A program made the position numbers and the translations under genes. The notes under the pieces were generated by a model. It was not told the origin of the DNA. It worked only from the letters and a program-made list of their open reading frames with translations, and ran no database searches. A stretch of DNA of 64,000 nt from Oscillospiraceae bacterium (lineage in GTDB: Bacteria > Bacillota > Clostridia > Oscillospirales > Acutalibacteraceae): the NCBI GenBank assembly GCA_022508805.1, contig JAFLUM010000005.1, forward strand, positions 62,001-126,000. The letters run 5' to 3'. Positions 42,955-48,474 of this stretch are shown here, piece by piece (within the stretch, counting starts at the first letter, position 1; the number at the start of each line of letters is the position of its first letter).

Positions 42955-43068
42955 AAGAGTGAGAAAGTCAAACACCGCAGGTAATACTTTCGTATTGTCA
43001 AGGTGTTTAATGCAGTATTTGCGGAAACATTTTCGCAAAACCGACTTGTGTTTAACTCTCTCAACCCT
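42955..43068. repeat. TIR-bounded element, degenerate copy
   Basis: The right ~57 bases (from GCAGTATTTGCGGAAAC to ACTCTCTCAACCC at 43055-43067) closely match the right end of the 43997-44192 element. The left end (AGAGTGAGAAAGTCAAACAC) matches the inverted right end at 16 of 21 positions. It occupies the spacer upstream of secA. The rest of the secA-SCP2 spacer (42914-43235) holds a plus-strand promoter but no gene. Confidence 0.6.
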
Positions 43069-43161
43069 ACTATCCCATTATAGATAAGACAAGTATATCA
43101 TATATTATCAAAAAAATCACTATTATTTTATGAACTTTTATGAACTTTCGGGGGATTTTTC

Positions 43162-43190
43162 TTGATTTTACCACCTGATTTTGGTATTCT
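43162..43190 (+). promoter_or_regulatory. Promoter of the SCP2/aminotransferase cluster
   Basis: TTGATT (43162-43167) and TATTCT (43185-43190) are 17 bp apart with an extended -10 (TGG just before TATTCT). It lies about 45 bp before the first SCP2-like gene. Confidence 0.5.
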
Positions 43191-43235
43191 TAATGTGTGT
43201 AAATCTATCTAATAATCTTTCAAGGAGGAACAGTT

Positions 43236-43997
43236 ATGACTGATTCAAAAACTTTGGCGTACATAAATATGTACGCGGTCCTCGGCACGCTGGAAAATCT
43301 CTGCGAACTTGACGATAAGGCTCGCGAGATAATTTCGGGACTTAAAAAGCCCGTTTCACTGGCATTTGAGGTAAAAGACGGTCCTGCCGCGACGATCACT
43401 TTTTCGTCAAAGGGTTGCCGTATGGAGGACGGCGCAAACGCATGCGACATAAAAATTCCCGTTTCCTCCTGTGAAAAATTCAACAAGATAATCGACGGTG
43501 AGGTAACGCCCGTCCCCTCAAAAGGTTTCTCGAAGATAGGTTTTCTTTTAAAGACCTTTACCGCCCTTACCGACAGGCTTACGGAGCTTATGCGACCCGA
43601 CGAGGAGGCTCTTAAGGATCCCGATTTTTTTGAGCTTTCAACGGTGCTTACGTTCTACACCATTTCCGTTGCCCTTTCGCAGATAGGAAACAAGGACGCT
43701 ATCGGACAGGCAAGCGCATCGTATATGGTGGACGGCGATATCGCTTTCTCCATTAAAAACGGTCCTGCCGCCACCGTTCGCGTAAAGGACCATCACCTTG
43801 TAACGATCAAAAAAGCGCCTGAAAATCCCCGTGCTATAATGCAGTTTGACAGCATTCAGCTTGCCAACGATCTGTTCAACGGAAAAATCAATTCTCTTGA
43901 GTGCGTGGGCAGAGGTACGGTCGAGATAAGAGGTATGCTCTCCATGGCGGACAATATGAACAGAATTCTTGACAGAGTCGCTCTGTATCTTGCATAG
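43236..43997 (+). CDS. SCP2-like protein with two tandem SCP2 domains (A)
   Basis: A 253-residue protein resembling sterol-carrier-protein-2 domains, which form a hydrophobic pocket for lipids or other non-polar ligands. Two halves are visible: residues ~40-125 contain KDGPAATITFSSKG and residues ~145-253 contain KNGPAATVRVKDHH, so the domain looks duplicated. The second half ends with the usual pocket-closing segment (DLFNGKINSLECVGRGTVEIRG, then helix). AAGGAGG precedes the start. The gene leads the cluster of aminotransferase, split transketolase and a second SCP2-like protein. A role as ligand carrier or pathway chaperone is inferred. Confidence 0.78.
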   Translation: MTDSKTLAYINMYAVLGTLENLCELDDKAREIISGLKKPVSLAFEVKDGPAATITFSSKGCRMEDGANACDIKIPVSSCEKFNKIIDGEVTPVPSKGFSKIGFLLKTFTALTDRLTELMRPDEEALKDPDFFELSTVLTFYTISVALSQIGNKDAIGQASASYMVDGDIAFSIKNGPAATVRVKDHHLVTIKKAPENPRAIMQFDSIQLANDLFNGKINSLECVGRGTVEIRGMLSMADNMNRILDRVALYLA

Positions 43998-44192
43998 GGT
44001 TGAGAGAGTCGACCTTCAGTCGCCTCACAGCGGCACTTTTTGCCGCTTTTCGCCCTTTCTTCTTTGATGGGCGTCAGCCCATCTGCATCAGAAAAAACAA
44101 AAATCGCCTAAAAATTTCCCGTTGAGAGGTGCTTTGCAGTTTTTGCGGAAATATTCCCGCAAAAACCGATTAAAGTTTTACTCTCTCAACCC
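43997..44192. mobile_element. 196-bp MITE-like element with 13-bp terminal inverted repeats
   Basis: GGGTTGAGAGAGT at 43997-44009 is the exact reverse complement of ACTCTCTCAACCC at 44180-44192. The left repeat begins within the TAG stop of the SCP2-like gene. Inside are a GCGGCA/TGCCGC hairpin, a GATGGGC/GCCCATC hairpin and, near the right end, GTTTTTGCGG/CCGCAAAAAC. No reading frame is present. A related copy lies at 42955-43068. A non-autonomous mobile element is likely, but no transposase of this type is in the window. Confidence 0.65.
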
Positions 44193-44209
44193 CAAGGAGG
44201 AACACTGCT

Positions 44210-45478
44210 ATGAGTAAATTTCCCGAATATACACACGAAAAAAGCCACGAGTATTTTGACAGAGCCGTAAAAGTCATCCCATCGGGCATCTACGGACATT
44301 TAGGTCCTGCCGAAGGACTTTGGGTCCCCGTTTCAAAGTGGCCGTTCTTTTCAGAAAAGGCTCAGGGTACATATTTTTGGGACGTTGACGGCAACAAATA
44401 TATTGACTTCATGTGCGCTTACGGCCCCAACGTTCTCGGCTACAACGACCCTGACGTTGAAGCCGCCGCTTTAAAGCAAATGAAGCTGGGCAACTGCACC
44501 ACCTCGCCCTCAAAGGTGATGGTAGAGTGCGCCGAGAACCTTGTGGACACGGTAGCCTCCGCTGACTGGGCGTTCTTCTGCAAAAACGGCTCGGACACCA
44601 CCACTCTCTCGGTTATGGCGGCAAGAGCACATACTCATAAAAAGAAGATCATCTTCTTAAAGGGCTTTTATCACGGAGATTTCCCGTGGGCACAGAAAAT
44701 TGACTATCCCGGCATTCTTCCCGAAGACGTGGCAAACAACATTGTTGTTCCGTGGTTTGACCTTGATGCTTTACAGAAGGCATATGACGACTGCGGCGGC
44801 GACGTGGCAGGTCTTATCGCTCAGCCCTATGACCACGGCAACTTTAAGGATAACGAGGTCGCCTCAAAGGAATATTGGCAGGCAGTCCGTAAATGGTGCG
44901 ACGAAAAGGGTGTCGTTCTTATTTTCGATGATGTGCGTACAGGCTTCCGTCTTGATATTCAAGGCACTGACCACTATTACGGCATAAAGGCAGACCTTAT
45001 CTGCTTCTGCAAGGCGCTTGCCAACGGACACAATATGTCGGCTCTCTGCGGCGGCGAGCATATGAAAACCACCGTTTCCGGTATCACCTACACCGGCTCT
45101 TACTGGATGAGCGCTGTTCCCTTTGCCGCGTGCATTGCCTGCATCAACAAAATGAAGGCTCTTGACGTTCCTACACTGTTCCGTAGACTGGGCACTCAGG
45201 TGACGGAGGGCTTTAAGGCTGCCGCAAAGGAGCACGGCTTTGATTTGGTCGTATCGGGCGAGCCTGCGCTGTTCTACCTGCGAATTGCAAACGATGACAG
45301 CCTTATGCTTCATCAGGAGTGGGTAGCTGAGTGTGTCAGCCGCGGACTGTTCTTAGCATCGCACCACAACCACTTCATAAACGCGGCTCTTACCGAAGAG
45401 GACATCAAAAAGTCCATAGAAATCGCTGAAGATGCGTTCTCGGTAGTAGCAAAACGCCATCCGGAGATCAAAGGATAA
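44210..45478 (+). CDS. Class III aminotransferase (glutamate-1-semialdehyde aminomutase-like)
   Basis: A 422-residue PLP enzyme. Visible are the KNGSDTTTLSVMAARAHT cofactor-phosphate segment near 125-142, the PLP-contacting aspartates in LIFDDVRTGFR (240-241) and the Schiff-base lysine in CFCKALANGHN (Lys268). The family includes glutamate-1-semialdehyde aminomutase and many sugar or keto-acid transaminases. This protein is unlikely to be HemL, because the residues around the lysine differ from HemL's GGGLP pattern and no heme genes are nearby. AAGGAGG precedes the ATG. Context with split transketolase suggests amination of a ketose- or aldose-derived intermediate (inference). Confidence 0.85.
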   Translation: MSKFPEYTHEKSHEYFDRAVKVIPSGIYGHLGPAEGLWVPVSKWPFFSEKAQGTYFWDVDGNKYIDFMCAYGPNVLGYNDPDVEAAALKQMKLGNCTTSPSKVMVECAENLVDTVASADWAFFCKNGSDTTTLSVMAARAHTHKKKIIFLKGFYHGDFPWAQKIDYPGILPEDVANNIVVPWFDLDALQKAYDDCGGDVAGLIAQPYDHGNFKDNEVASKEYWQAVRKWCDEKGVVLIFDDVRTGFRLDIQGTDHYYGIKADLICFCKALANGHNMSALCGGEHMKTTVSGITYTGSYWMSAVPFAACIACINKMKALDVPTLFRRLGTQVTEGFKAAAKEHGFDLVVSGEPALFYLRIANDDSLMLHQEWVAECVSRGLFLASHHNHFINAALTEEDIKKSIEIAEDAFSVVAKRHPEIKG

Positions 45479-45496
45479 ATGTAAAACAAGCCCTTG

Positions 45497-45660
45497 CCTC
45501 CCTCAAAGATGAAGCGGAAATCTGTTATCTTGTAGGGACGGGTGCCCACACCCGCCCGTGAGTTACTGAAAAAATTTAATCGTCCCCTACAACTCCCTCA
45601 AAGAGGGAGCGAAAAAATTACCTCTCAGTCGCTTCGCGACAGCTCCCCTGACAAGGGTCG
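45497..45660. repeat. CTCCCTC/GAGGGAG composite repeat, copy 4
   Basis: Contains CTCCCTCAAAGATG, TTGTAGGGACGGGTG with CACCCGCCCGTGAGTTACTG, then CGTCCCCTACAACTCCCTC and GAGGGAGC, and a TCGCTTCGCGA hairpin. TTGTAGGGAC and GTCCCCTACAA form an outer inverted repeat of 63 bp. It sits between the aminotransferase and transketolase genes. Confidence 0.8.
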
Positions 45661-45714
45661 CCGATGATCGATATACTAAAAAAATAATATACTTTATGAA
45701 AAGGGAGAAAATTT

Positions 45715-46596
45715 ATGCACGATTTGACAAAATCAGAGTGGCTCGCGCTGGAAAAAAAGGCGTATGAGCTGCGTAAGCTCACCCTGCAGACCACTGTTTG
45801 GGCGGGCAGCGGACACCTTGGCGGCGGTATGAGCATCCTTGATCTTCTCACGGTGCTCTATCACAAGTATCTGAACATCCGCGTTGAAGAGCCTCAGTGG
45901 GAGGACCGTGACCGCTTTATTTTAAGTAAAGGTCATGCAGCCATAGCGTATGCTCCCGTTCTCTGCGACAAAGGCTTTAACCCTGTGGAAATGCTCAAGA
46001 CCTTTAACCTTTCAGGCTCAAAAATGGGTATGCACCTTGACTCAAACAAGGTCGTGGGCGTTGACGCGTCAACGGGCTCTCTCGGTCACGGTGTTTCCAT
46101 TGCGGCGGGAACGGCTCTTGCCGCAAAACTTATGGGCAAGGATTATCTTACATATGTGGCCACGGGCGACGGCGAATTGGGAGAGGGCTCAAACTGGGAA
46201 GGCTTTATGACCCTCAACCACTATCAGCTTTCAAACTGCATCGTTTTCATTGACAGAAACCACTGTATGATAGACGGTCCTACAGAGGACGTTATGAAGC
46301 TTGAACCCCTTGCAGATAAAATGACGGCGTTCGGCTTTAACACCGTCACCGTTGACGGTAACAACATCGGCGAGCTTTGCGGCGCCATTGACGCGGCCGT
46401 TGAACGCTCAAAAGAGCCGTGCGCACCCACCTGTATTATTATGGACACCAAAAAGGGCGCCGGAGTCAAAACCATTGAGGGTGATTACCTGTGGCACTAC
46501 GGCGCTATTGACGATGCTCTCTTTGAAAAATTCAATAAAGAGCTTAGTGAAGATTACAAGGCTCGCTGTGAGCGCGCTGAAAAGGAGGGCAAATAA
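45715..46596 (+). CDS. tktN: Transketolase, N-terminal subunit
   Basis: A 293-residue thiamine-diphosphate-binding half-transketolase. It has the GSGHLGGGMSILDLLTVLYH segment near 30 and the ThDP/Mg motif GDGELGEGSNWEG near 149-161. It ends before the pyrimidine-binding domain, which the next gene supplies. A GGGAG ribosome site precedes the ATG. Split transketolases are common in Firmicutes, transferring two-carbon ketol units in the pentose phosphate pathway or in specialised sugar pathways. Here the two subunit genes are flanked by an aminotransferase and an SCP2-like gene, so a dedicated role is possible. Confidence 0.92.
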   Translation: MHDLTKSEWLALEKKAYELRKLTLQTTVWAGSGHLGGGMSILDLLTVLYHKYLNIRVEEPQWEDRDRFILSKGHAAIAYAPVLCDKGFNPVEMLKTFNLSGSKMGMHLDSNKVVGVDASTGSLGHGVSIAAGTALAAKLMGKDYLTYVATGDGELGEGSNWEGFMTLNHYQLSNCIVFIDRNHCMIDGPTEDVMKLEPLADKMTAFGFNTVTVDGNNIGELCGAIDAAVERSKEPCAPTCIIMDTKKGAGVKTIEGDYLWHYGAIDDALFEKFNKELSEDYKARCERAEKEGK

Positions 46597-46598
46597 TT

Positions 46599-47609
46599 AT
46601 GGCAGGCGGATTTGTTTACAATGCCGTTGACCAGACTGAACTTTCAACGGCCGAAATTTACGGCAAGGCACTTGCCGACATAATTATGCGCGACCAAAAG
46701 GTTGTCGCCATCACCGCTGACTTAGCAAAATCGACTAAATTAGGCGACGTTTTAAAGGTTTGCCCCGAAAGAGTTATAAACGTAGGTATTGCCGAACAGG
46801 ATATGTTCGGAGTTGCTGCAGGTATGGCAAGAGCTGGTATGATACCCTTCCTTTCAGGCTTTTCGGCATTCACCTCAATGCGAGCCTGTGACCAGCTTCA
46901 CACCGATATATGCTATCAGAACGTTAACGCAAAAATCATTGCAACGCACGCGGGAACATCCTTCGGTCAGGCAGGCTCAACTCACCACGCCATAACCGAC
47001 CTTGCAATTACGAGAGCGATGCCCAATCTCACGGTTATCGTTCCCGCTGACGGCTTTGAAACGGCAAACGCAGTAAACGCCGCTTACGACAATTTCGGTC
47101 CTTATTATATCCGAATCAACCGCGGTTTTGACCGTGTTCTTTATGAAAATATGGATTACGGCTTTGAGGTGGGCAAGGCGGTGGAGGTACATCCCGGTAC
47201 GGATATCACCGTTATCGCCTGCGGCTCCTGCGTATTCCAAGCCCGTGAGGCTGCAAAATTCCTCCGGAATGTAGACGGAATTAAGGTTCGTGTTCTCAAT
47301 ATGCACACCATCAAGCCCATCGACAGAGATGCTGTATTCAAGGCGGCAGAGGAAACAGGTCACATTATCACCGTTGAGGATCATTCCGTCATTGGTGGCT
47401 TAGGCTCAGCCGTTGCCGAGGCAGTAGCAGAGGCAGGCAAGCTTTGTACCTTGAAGAGACTCGGACATCAGGATAAATTCGCTCCCATCGGACTGCACGA
47501 GGACATTATGTCCGAGGTCGGCATTGACGCCAACGGCATAATCGCCGCTGTCCGCGAGGCTTTGGGCATAGATTTTGAAGAAGACGACAACTGGGATGAT
47601 GAGGTGTAA
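46599..47609 (+). CDS. tktC: Transketolase, C-terminal subunit
   Basis: A 336-residue partner of the preceding subunit, starting two bases after its stop with GGAGGG upstream. It contains the pyrimidine-binding domain (ITADLAKSTKLGDV, ERVINVGIAEQDMFGVAAGMA with the conserved glutamate) and the C-terminal transketolase domain (DITVIACGSCVFQAREAA, TVEDHSVIGGLGSAVAE). The active site is formed at the interface of the two subunits. Three bases separate it from the second SCP2-like gene, a strong sign that the latter belongs to the same unit. Confidence 0.93.
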   Translation: MAGGFVYNAVDQTELSTAEIYGKALADIIMRDQKVVAITADLAKSTKLGDVLKVCPERVINVGIAEQDMFGVAAGMARAGMIPFLSGFSAFTSMRACDQLHTDICYQNVNAKIIATHAGTSFGQAGSTHHAITDLAITRAMPNLTVIVPADGFETANAVNAAYDNFGPYYIRINRGFDRVLYENMDYGFEVGKAVEVHPGTDITVIACGSCVFQAREAAKFLRNVDGIKVRVLNMHTIKPIDRDAVFKAAEETGHIITVEDHSVIGGLGSAVAEAVAEAGKLCTLKRLGHQDKFAPIGLHEDIMSEVGIDANGIIAAVREALGIDFEEDDNWDDEV

Positions 47610-47612
47610 AAT

Positions 47613-48419
47613 ATGCATACACAGGAAGAGCTTTATTCAAACAAAATATTCTTTAACGCAGCGCTGCCTCTTATAAAGGTCATCGCAAACGACGTAGAGT
47701 CGCTTAAAAAGCAGTTTCAGGGCGTTCACGCCGTCATTCAGGTAAGCGCTCTTGACCCCGATGCTGACGGCGGAAAAATCGGAATGCATTACACAGTCAA
47801 CGGCGGAAAATGGGAGGTACATCTTGATAAGGTTGACCCCAATCCACAGGTTGAGCTCGAATTTAAGAGTGTTGAGGCAATGAACGCATTTTTCAAGGGC
47901 AAAATAGGTCCTGCGACACTCCCGAAAATGAAGGGTGCTGTTAAGCATTTCGGCACATTCAAGGCATTTTTGATGACACTTCTTAAAATGTCGTCACTCT
48001 TAAGCGCCACCGAGCCGCCCAAAGATGAAGAGACAAAGCAGCTTATGGTAAAATGCTTTTTCTACCTGCTTTCAAGCGGTATAAGCCAGCTTAACAAAAT
48101 GGGGCACCCCGAGATACACGAATGGACGGGCAAAAGTCCCGACCGTGTTTACGCGTTCGCAGTCAACGATCACCCTGAGGTATCCGCATATCTTCGCATA
48201 AAGGCCGGCAACTCAAAGGCAGGCAGAGGCGAATACAAGCGTGCAATGCCGTTCTTTACCTTAAGATTCAAAACCTTTGATAACGCACTGGGTATACTTT
48301 TGGGAACGGACGATATGCTTGAGGCGGTCAAAAAGGGTAACCTTATCATGGACGGAGCGCCCGAATTCGGCGGACAGATCGGCAATTTTATGCTCCTGGT
48401 CGGCGCTTTGGCAAAATAA
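47613..48419 (+). CDS. SCP2-like protein (B)
   Basis: A 268-residue protein similar in layout to SCP2-like protein A. A first SCP2-type domain (~30-145) contains HYTVNGGKWEVHLDKV, VELEFKSVEAMNAFFKGKIGP and a following helical segment. A second, more divergent half (~165-268) contains VYAFAVNDHPEVSAYLRIKAG and ALGILLGTDDMLEAVKKGNLIMDG. It begins three bases after the transketolase C subunit and ends before a terminator, closing the cluster. Lipid or hydrophobic-metabolite binding is expected from the family; the ligand is unknown. Confidence 0.75.
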   Translation: MHTQEELYSNKIFFNAALPLIKVIANDVESLKKQFQGVHAVIQVSALDPDADGGKIGMHYTVNGGKWEVHLDKVDPNPQVELEFKSVEAMNAFFKGKIGPATLPKMKGAVKHFGTFKAFLMTLLKMSSLLSATEPPKDEETKQLMVKCFFYLLSSGISQLNKMGHPEIHEWTGKSPDRVYAFAVNDHPEVSAYLRIKAGNSKAGRGEYKRAMPFFTLRFKTFDNALGILLGTDDMLEAVKKGNLIMDGAPEFGGQIGNFMLLVGALAK

Positions 48420-48438
48420 TTCATCTTATATAACACAC

Positions 48439-48474
48439 AAACGCTGGTGCAAAAATTTGTACCAGCGTTTTGTT
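48439..48474 (+). terminator. Terminator of the SCP2/transketolase cluster
   Basis: AAACGCTGGT (48439-48448) pairs perfectly with ACCAGCGTTT (48461-48470), followed by TGTTTTG. Confidence 0.8.

Follow-up and report, generated by a model that had tools for sequence, protein, structure and literature searches.

A conserved cassette of a split transketolase, a FumI-type aminotransferase and two SCP2-fold proteins in an Oscillospiraceae bacterium: a possible route to sphingoid bases

Five genes on the forward strand of an Oscillospiraceae genome may encode a route to sphingoid bases that bypasses serine palmitoyltransferase (SPT). They lie at positions 43236-48419 of the 64,000-nucleotide stretch analysed here (hereafter the window; GenBank assembly GCA_022508805.1, contig JAFLUM010000005.1, positions 62,001 to 126,000) and encode, in order, an SCP2-fold protein (A), a class III aminotransferase (AT), the two halves of a split transketolase (TktN and TktC, together TktNC) and a second SCP2-fold protein (B). 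With confidence a little short of even, we read the cassette as what would be a two-step, SPT-independent route to a sphingoid-type base, a substrate class that we infer from sequence comparisons. The link to sphingoid bases is drawn because AT is kin to the aminopentol aminotransferase FumI and because A and AT are found alongside SPT in relatives.

A conserved five-gene cassette

The initial annotation of this region described five same-strand genes with gaps of two and three bases from TktN to B and took them for one system. The five open reading frames are confirmed on the plus strand, and their coordinates bear out the layout (2 bases between TktN and TktC, 3 between TktC and B). A scan of genome contigs with protein B returned 198 relatives, the best 80 of which were kept for locus counts. 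Of these 80 loci, 74 carry A-AT-TktN-TktC-B in full, which argues that the order is not a product of chance. In five of the six others (L009, L025, L068, L079 and L084), the cassette is cut off by the end of the contig; the remaining one (L086) has TktN-TktC-B, with neither A nor AT in the 8 kb upstream. Flanking genes vary, so what is conserved is the cassette itself: after the five genes, the commonest family is secA, in 23 of the 84 loci clustered, followed by a steep fall-off. All five genes are under purifying selection because dS (0.98-2.33) exceeds dN (0.06-0.22) about nine-fold or more in comparisons with three relatives. Among flanking families, an NAD-dependent epimerase-like family (c10) occurs in six loci and follows B in the three shown (L062, L065 and L068), and an M28-peptidase-like family (c14) occurs in five; both are possible lineage-specific partners.

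Whole-genome searches for B, counting the genome under study each time, were positive for 5 genomes among 291 in the class, 13 among 394 in the order and 5 among 398 in the phylum. The five-gene order extends beyond very close relatives into other classes of the phylum, and the idea of a real conserved system has held up in this comparison of neighbourhoods. Two such loci (L111 and L112) have identities of 42% for A, 58% for AT, 53-54% for TktN, 64-65% for TktC and 52-53% for B; for a third (L113), the corresponding values are 28%, 44%, 50%, 58% and 33%. The cassette comprises two modules, A+AT and TktN+TktC+B, which lie on separate contigs in genome G829 (L115 and L114, respectively). Among the 13 B-positive genomes of the order, 11 were seen to have TktN and TktC next to B, with G424 and G577 outside that check, and 12 have AT and B at most about 4 kb apart on one contig. 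Four genomes from other families of the class (L087-L090) carry a sister architecture, here termed dehydrogenase-type, in which TktN-TktC-B is followed by a polyol-type zinc dehydrogenase and a MerR-like gene; domains were identified on L089, and L087, L088 and L090 were assigned by similarity. A FumI-like AT was not found in these four genomes (best scores 39-211 bits versus at least 577; one genome is 78% complete). A gene upstream of the L089 cluster that was first taken for an aminotransferase proved to be glutamate 2,3-aminomutase.

AT (44210..45478; 422 amino acids) falls in Pfam family Aminotran_3 and, by its sequence, belongs to the FumI-type aminopentol aminotransferase clade. Its best match among solved structures is FumI (PDB 6hbs, 305.7 bits; 38% identity over 399 residues), compared with 160.3 bits for the best HemL and 102 bits for a C-6' aminotransferase; identity to three HemL sequences is 28-29%. 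A maximum-likelihood tree of 32 rows unites the cassette ATs, FumI and plasmid-borne relatives in one clade (100/100), outside which lie the three HemL rows and the other class III enzyme of the same genome; the long-branch warning attached to this tree concerns branches elsewhere in it. Motifs DDVRxGF and TGS[FY]W occur in all 15 cassette AT rows and in FumI, with TGSYW in the AT studied here. Among the 25 NCBIfam families shown, none exceeds its cut-off for AT. Identification as HemL, a grouping that the initial annotation had set against its own idea of a system, is rejected on the hemL model score (193.7 bits versus a cut-off of 527), the best structural match and the tree placement. FumI moves the C2 amino group of hydrolysed fumonisin B1 to pyruvate (PMC2933618), and fumonisins resemble sphinganine (PMC9858248).

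FumI-like genes on plasmids offer a parallel. ABC-transporter genes occur in seven of eight annotated neighbourhoods (two further neighbourhoods are unannotated), and in two of the eight, a Shinella (L122) and Agrobacterium (L123) pair, an alpha-ketoacid dehydrogenase is annotated next to an acetoin dehydrogenase E2. The pairing of a FumI-type aminotransferase with a nearby thiamine enzyme, one able in principle to form or cleave the adjacent C-C bond, is thus seen outside the cassette as well. These two plasmids may hold a catabolic route for vicinal amino alcohols. A haloarchaeal plasmid (L129) has, some 2.5 kb from a class III aminotransferase gene, another whose annotation includes a neutral ceramidase domain.

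TktN (45715..46596; 293 amino acids; Transketolase_N 130.4 bits) is the thiamine-diphosphate-binding half of the split transketolase, with 6yak as its closest solved structure (212.5 bits), and TktC (46599..47609; 336 amino acids) is the other half, with Transket_pyr and Transketolase_C domains. Equivalents of H30, H69, H103 and H263, which we take to be the thiamine-diphosphate and catalytic residues of transketolase, are kept in 74 of 74 cassette TktN and 4 of 4 dehydrogenase-type copies. At the position of yeast D477 (E. coli D469), the Asp that reads the acceptor hydroxyl, TktC here has Ala125; Ala also stands there in all 75 cassette copies, all 3 dehydrogenase-type copies and all 7 further TktC copies with B. 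Four other positions (R359, S386, H469 and R528 in yeast numbering) are assumed to form the phosphate site. The R359 equivalent is Ala18 here, and among the 75 cassette copies it is A in 63, S in 11 and R in one; it is G, G, T, A and A in L111, L112, L116, L117 and L113, respectively. TktC ends in a tail of the type DFExDDNWDDEV, with a Trp and at least six acidic residues, in 78 of 78 copies of the cassette and dehydrogenase-type sets. A similar tail ends the seven further copies with B, and none is present in three reference transketolases or in L149, which has no B. The tail might plausibly be a docking site for B.

A second split transketolase, on contig 8 of the genome, scores 212.8 bits against the family versus 129.1 bits for the cassette pair, and keeps the acceptor-site Arg and Asp in an alignment with the human and Carboxydothermus enzymes. 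Judged by these residues, TktNC is a second transketolase of the genome with an altered acceptor site. About 15 kb from the contig-8 pair lies a small protein (L001; G000 contig 8, 30391-30669) that is the only SCP2 match in this genome at E 0.001. In two studies, E. coli transketolase variants for non-polar aliphatic and aromatic aldehydes, shifted away from phosphorylated ones, involve D469 changes (PMC5073344), and a split transketolase accepts bulky aldehydes (PMC7661550). The combination of a D469-to-Ala change with an acidic Trp tail is predicted to mark transketolases that act on hydrophobic aldehydes.

The SCP2-like nature that the initial annotation gave to A (43236..43997; 253 amino acids; adjoining AT) and B (47613..48419; 268 amino acids; adjoining TktNC) stands at the level of fold. 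A matches SCP2 (PF02036) below threshold (19.6 bits versus a cut-off of 21.3), and a Pfam scan of B gave no credible family and no SCP2 match. Predicted structures, with predicted local distance difference test (pLDDT) scores of 91.7 for A and 90.3 for B, matched the SCP2 fold in structure comparisons that cover mainly the C-terminal halves, and the N-terminal halves may have another fold; A probably has two SCP2-like halves, with a putative lipid pocket. On these models, A and B are homologous SCP2-fold proteins.

One promoter-like consensus match (43081-43108, 9/12) lies 5' of A; promoter-like sites, which are consensus matches only, number 14 versus 6.1 (sd 2.4) in shuffles. A strong intrinsic-terminator-like hairpin on the plus strand (48439..48470), with a 14-pair stem and then a T-rich tail, closes the cassette 3' of B. 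Here, 212 bases separate A from AT and 236 separate AT from TktN, versus medians of 14 and 56 in the 74 full-order relatives. A repeat element with the end GGGTTGAGAGAGT occurs on both sides of A, as a partial copy at 43011-43067 and as a copy with inverted ends at 43988-44201 that fills the A-AT gap. The repeat in this gap is probably a late insertion because the median gap in relatives is 14 bases. A 13-mer of the repeat occurs three times in the window, against 0.02 expected.

Association of A and AT with serine palmitoyltransferase

The 394 genomes of the order were searched with a profile built from cassette ATs; positives scored above 570 bits and the next score was 244. AT is present in 23 genomes, 13 with B and 10 without. 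All 13 B-positive genomes have AT, compared with 10 of 381 B-negative genomes (p 1.6e-18, a value to be read in light of the fact that same-genus genomes are not independent and the 13 represent four genera). A adjoins AT in nine of the ten AT genomes without B, with L149 as the exception. SPT (at least 515 bits) is present in nine of these ten genomes versus 43 of 371 without AT (at least 484 bits; p 7.8e-8), so that 22 of the 23 AT genomes have either B or SPT. The genome that fits neither class (G615, locus L149) has a distant AT (577 bits), no A or B and no SPT match; its AT lies about 5 kb from a tail-less TktNC pair, with an alanine dehydrogenase gene and others between, and it is perhaps a catabolic cousin.

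The strongest clue to substrate class is that A-AT shares a locus with SPT and a 3-ketosphinganine-reductase-like (KdsR-like) gene in L141, L143, L145 and L147; in L145, too, SPT comes after A-AT. The synthases of L141, L143 and L147 score 516-536 bits against the SPT model NF047600, below its cut-off of 640, with the next models at 390-397 bits; for L141, the one searched, the best PDB match is SPT 3a2b (401.9 bits). The short-chain dehydrogenases/reductases (SDRs) of the same three loci have 3-ketodihydrosphingosine reductase as best of more than 200 models (218-233 bits, below the cut-off of 400). This KdsR-like name is not confirmed for the L141 SDR by the PDB because its best match there is an unnamed dehydrogenase at 99 bits. 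Across the order, 52 of 394 genomes have SPT-like genes (at least 484 bits). The SPT loci examined number 24, made up of L176-L195 (20 loci, of which one lies outside the order) and the four that contain A-AT; 21 of them have a KdsR-like gene, mostly adjoining SPT. In these bacteria, SPT and a KdsR-like SDR look like a canonical sphinganine gene pair.

SPT and transketolase would form the same bond, between head-group C2 and chain C3. Since the two share this bond, and since AT can link a 2-amino-1,3-diol with a 1,3-dihydroxy-2-ketone, A and AT are best placed on sphingoid bases. In a 41-row AT tree, eight SPT-type ATs group together and, with L140, fall within the transketolase-type ATs; therefore, the partner of A-AT changed at least twice on that tree. 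A comparison of SPT loci with cassette flanks for a shared downstream sphingolipid gene gave nothing convincing beyond A and AT; a KdsR-like cluster occurs in five loci and is not separable from ordinary SDRs. An early notion that SPT and TktNC-B are mutually exclusive was cut back because SPT absence from the B-positive genomes is not significant and because two genomes outside the order (G828 and G209) have both.

Proposed route, direction and alternatives

In the proposed route, TktNC would transfer a C2 ketol from a ketose phosphate or hydroxypyruvate to a long-chain fatty aldehyde to give a 1,3-dihydroxyalkan-2-one. AT would then use alanine or a like amino donor to convert the 2-ketone into a 2-amino-1,3-diol, either sphinganine or one of its stereoisomers. 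The hydrophobic substrate and product would be bound by B on the TktNC side, perhaps via the acidic Trp-bearing tail of TktC, and by A on the AT side. The aldehyde dehydrogenase genes that follow TktN-TktC-B and its neighbours in L089 and L116 point to an aldehyde as partner of the B-linked transketolase. The fuller statement is more tentative, and we judge it less likely than not: a transketolase and a transaminase would together form a naturally evolved pathway that builds sphingoid bases out of fatty aldehydes and sugar carbon, with no need of SPT, while two dedicated SCP2-fold proteins would hand the lipid from one enzyme to the next. The suggestion in the initial annotation of an aminated, hydrophobic metabolite is favoured by these comparisons.

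Both steps are reversible in principle. Synthesis is favoured for this genome because no SPT, alpha-oxoamine synthase or spare aldehyde dehydrogenase was found in it, and because, by inspection, no transporter or regulator recurs with the cassette. Searches of the genome (99% complete) gave no SPT match at E 1e-20 (NF047600) and no alpha-oxoamine synthase at 1e-10 (TIGR01825). It has only two genes of the aldehyde-dehydrogenase family, and both exceed the cut-off of a named model, one as methylmalonate-semialdehyde dehydrogenase (553.8 bits) and the other as ProA (603.7 bits), so no fatty-aldehyde oxidase of that family is left. Inspection of the 45 commonest families listed shows none of transporter or regulator type in more than 3 of the 84 clustered loci; a lipase-like family (c41) is present in three, as are ABC-type families.

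Several results weigh against the proposed synthesis of sphingoid bases. Its weakest point is that, if SPT and KdsR already give a sphingoid base, the presence of A and AT in those genomes is puzzling; moreover, 43 of the 52 SPT-bearing genomes of the order have no FumI-like AT. SPT is found in 0 of 13 B-positive genomes of the order, which alone is not significant (p 0.23), and outside the order G828 has the cassette together with a 561-bit SPT-like protein, while the dehydrogenase-type G209 has one of 539 bits. No source of fatty aldehyde was found in the genome under study, where acyl-CoA/acyl-ACP reductases were not searched for. Transketolase chemistry would give a 3S centre, as in fumonisin, rather than the 3R of common sphinganine. 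At the phosphate site, the S386 equivalent is S in 74 of 75 cassette copies (one gap), the H469 and R528 equivalents are kept in 75 of 75, and the R359 equivalent is kept in 3 of 3 dehydrogenase-type copies, plus L089 and L114. Signs of catabolism in relatives belong on the same side and are taken up next.

The cassette might instead serve breakdown, in which AT would pass the amino group to pyruvate, TktNC would pass the C2 ketol to a sugar phosphate, and the fatty aldehyde released would be oxidised or reduced elsewhere. FumI is catabolic and acts in that direction, and its plasmid relatives, with their ABC transporters (7/8) and thiamine-type ketoacid dehydrogenase (2/8), point the same way. 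An aldehyde dehydrogenase gene follows the zinc dehydrogenase and the MerR-like regulator gene in L089, and another lies directly 3' of B in L116 (genome G335, of the same order). None adjoins these genes in L087 or L088, and the contig ends there in L090. G335 carries A-AT and TktN-TktC-B with its aldehyde dehydrogenase on different contigs, and a gene for alanine dehydrogenase lies some 1.2 kb from A-AT. The alanine dehydrogenase genes in L149 and L150 count for breakdown. Many of the 80 loci carry gut or rumen titles, and these habitats contain host and plant sphingolipids. Against breakdown stand the identities of the two aldehyde-dehydrogenase-family genes in the genome under study, the lack of a recurrent transporter or regulator among the families listed for the five-gene form, and the joining of A-AT to SPT, which is a biosynthetic enzyme. 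On balance, breakdown is less likely than synthesis here.

Less probable again is that the product is another hydrophobic acyloin and vicinal amino alcohol, derived from short, branched or aromatic aldehydes (for example, as signals), in place of a long-chain sphingoid base. Neighbours of plasmid FumI-like genes are varied and include sugar-acid kinases and aldolases. For the aldehyde dehydrogenases next to TktNC-B, the top-scoring model is benzaldehyde dehydrogenase (460 and 457 bits, short of its cut-off of 550), and the synthases co-operonic with A-AT match an alpha-hydroxyketone synthase model at 198-203 bits. The same synthases score far higher as SPT, however, with the next models well behind, their SDR neighbours are best matched by 3-ketodihydrosphingosine reductase, and a pair of SCP2-fold proteins suits a long chain.

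A route to an aminated sugar phosphate, of which the combination had reminded the initial annotation, is very improbable even with SCP2 proteins as scaffolds. A split transketolase with a class III aminotransferase and three retained phosphate-site residues would fit it. The acceptor Asp is lost in every checked TktC with B, though, and the R359 equivalent in 74 of 75 cassette copies, even if some distant copies keep Arg; in addition, AT is far from amino-sugar enzymes (102 bits for the C-6' aminotransferase versus 306 for FumI), and A-AT occurs with SPT. That TktNC is a spare housekeeping transketolase lying beside lipid genes by chance is scarcely credible despite its intact TktN catalytic residues, and was rejected because a more canonical split pair, with Asp and Arg kept, exists in the same genome, B and AT co-occur almost perfectly, and the tail and D469A occur in the copies with B, not in the reference enzymes.

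Significance and relation to known systems

If the proposed synthesis of sphingoid bases is correct, then bacteria, perhaps in gut communities, make sphingolipid-type lipids, perhaps of threo (2S,3S) configuration, that are invisible to SPT-based genome surveys. SPT is the usual marker gene of sphingolipid producers, and surveys based on it would have missed producers among gut and environmental Clostridia-like bacteria. The abstract of PMC12134224 likewise treats SPT as such a marker. The cassette would also be a natural counterpart of the transketolase-transaminase cascades for chiral amino diols. Such cascades have been built for that purpose. If breakdown applies, anaerobes would have an unrecorded way to consume sphingoid bases. 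In either direction, five genes without a described system gain a testable substrate class. Searches by title and abstract opening, in a literature whose coverage leaves out most subscription journals and bioRxiv preprints, found no publication on such a cluster or on a path to sphingoid bases through a transketolase. All the enzymes belong to known families; their combination and the proposed route are new within the searchable literature.

AT resembles FumI of Sphingopyxis sp. MTA144 (6hbs) in clade, motifs and best PDB score, and FumI acts on the C2 amino group of a long-chain polyol. AT is only 38% identical to it, whereas reported fumonisin transaminases are 61-74% identical among themselves (PMC9858248). 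The partners of AT are a transketolase and two SCP2-fold proteins. A carboxylesterase and transport genes stand beside fumI in the fumonisin catabolic cluster; by inspection, families of these kinds are present in at most 3 of the 84 loci clustered here. The route through SPT and 3-ketosphinganine reductase would share the compound class, and A-AT is found with such genes in relatives, but the cassette would make the C-C bond by thiamine chemistry with an aldehyde as substrate, in place of pyridoxal phosphate chemistry on an acyl thioester. Polyketide-synthase-derived bacterial sphingolipids (PfSgaAB) are described in the abstract of PMC12134224 as products of a non-canonical route that still uses SPT activity, and that abstract names neither a transketolase nor an SCP2 protein. 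The split transketolase of Carboxydothermus hydrogenoformans (6yaj/6yak) has the same two-chain layout and is the best PDB match of the cassette transketolase, and both a split transketolase and evolved E. coli transketolases (D469 variants) accept bulky or non-polar aldehydes. The cassette enzyme differs from these in that the acceptor Asp has been lost naturally, nearly every cassette copy also lacks the R359 equivalent, TktC ends in an acidic tail with a Trp, and A, AT and B are its constant neighbours. Finally, A and B share the fold of their C-terminal halves with SCP2 domain proteins (UbiJ, the alkylsulfatase C-terminal domain and human SCP-2L), but they are two-domain-sized, fall below the Pfam cut-off (A) or have no Pfam match (B), and are tied to one cassette.

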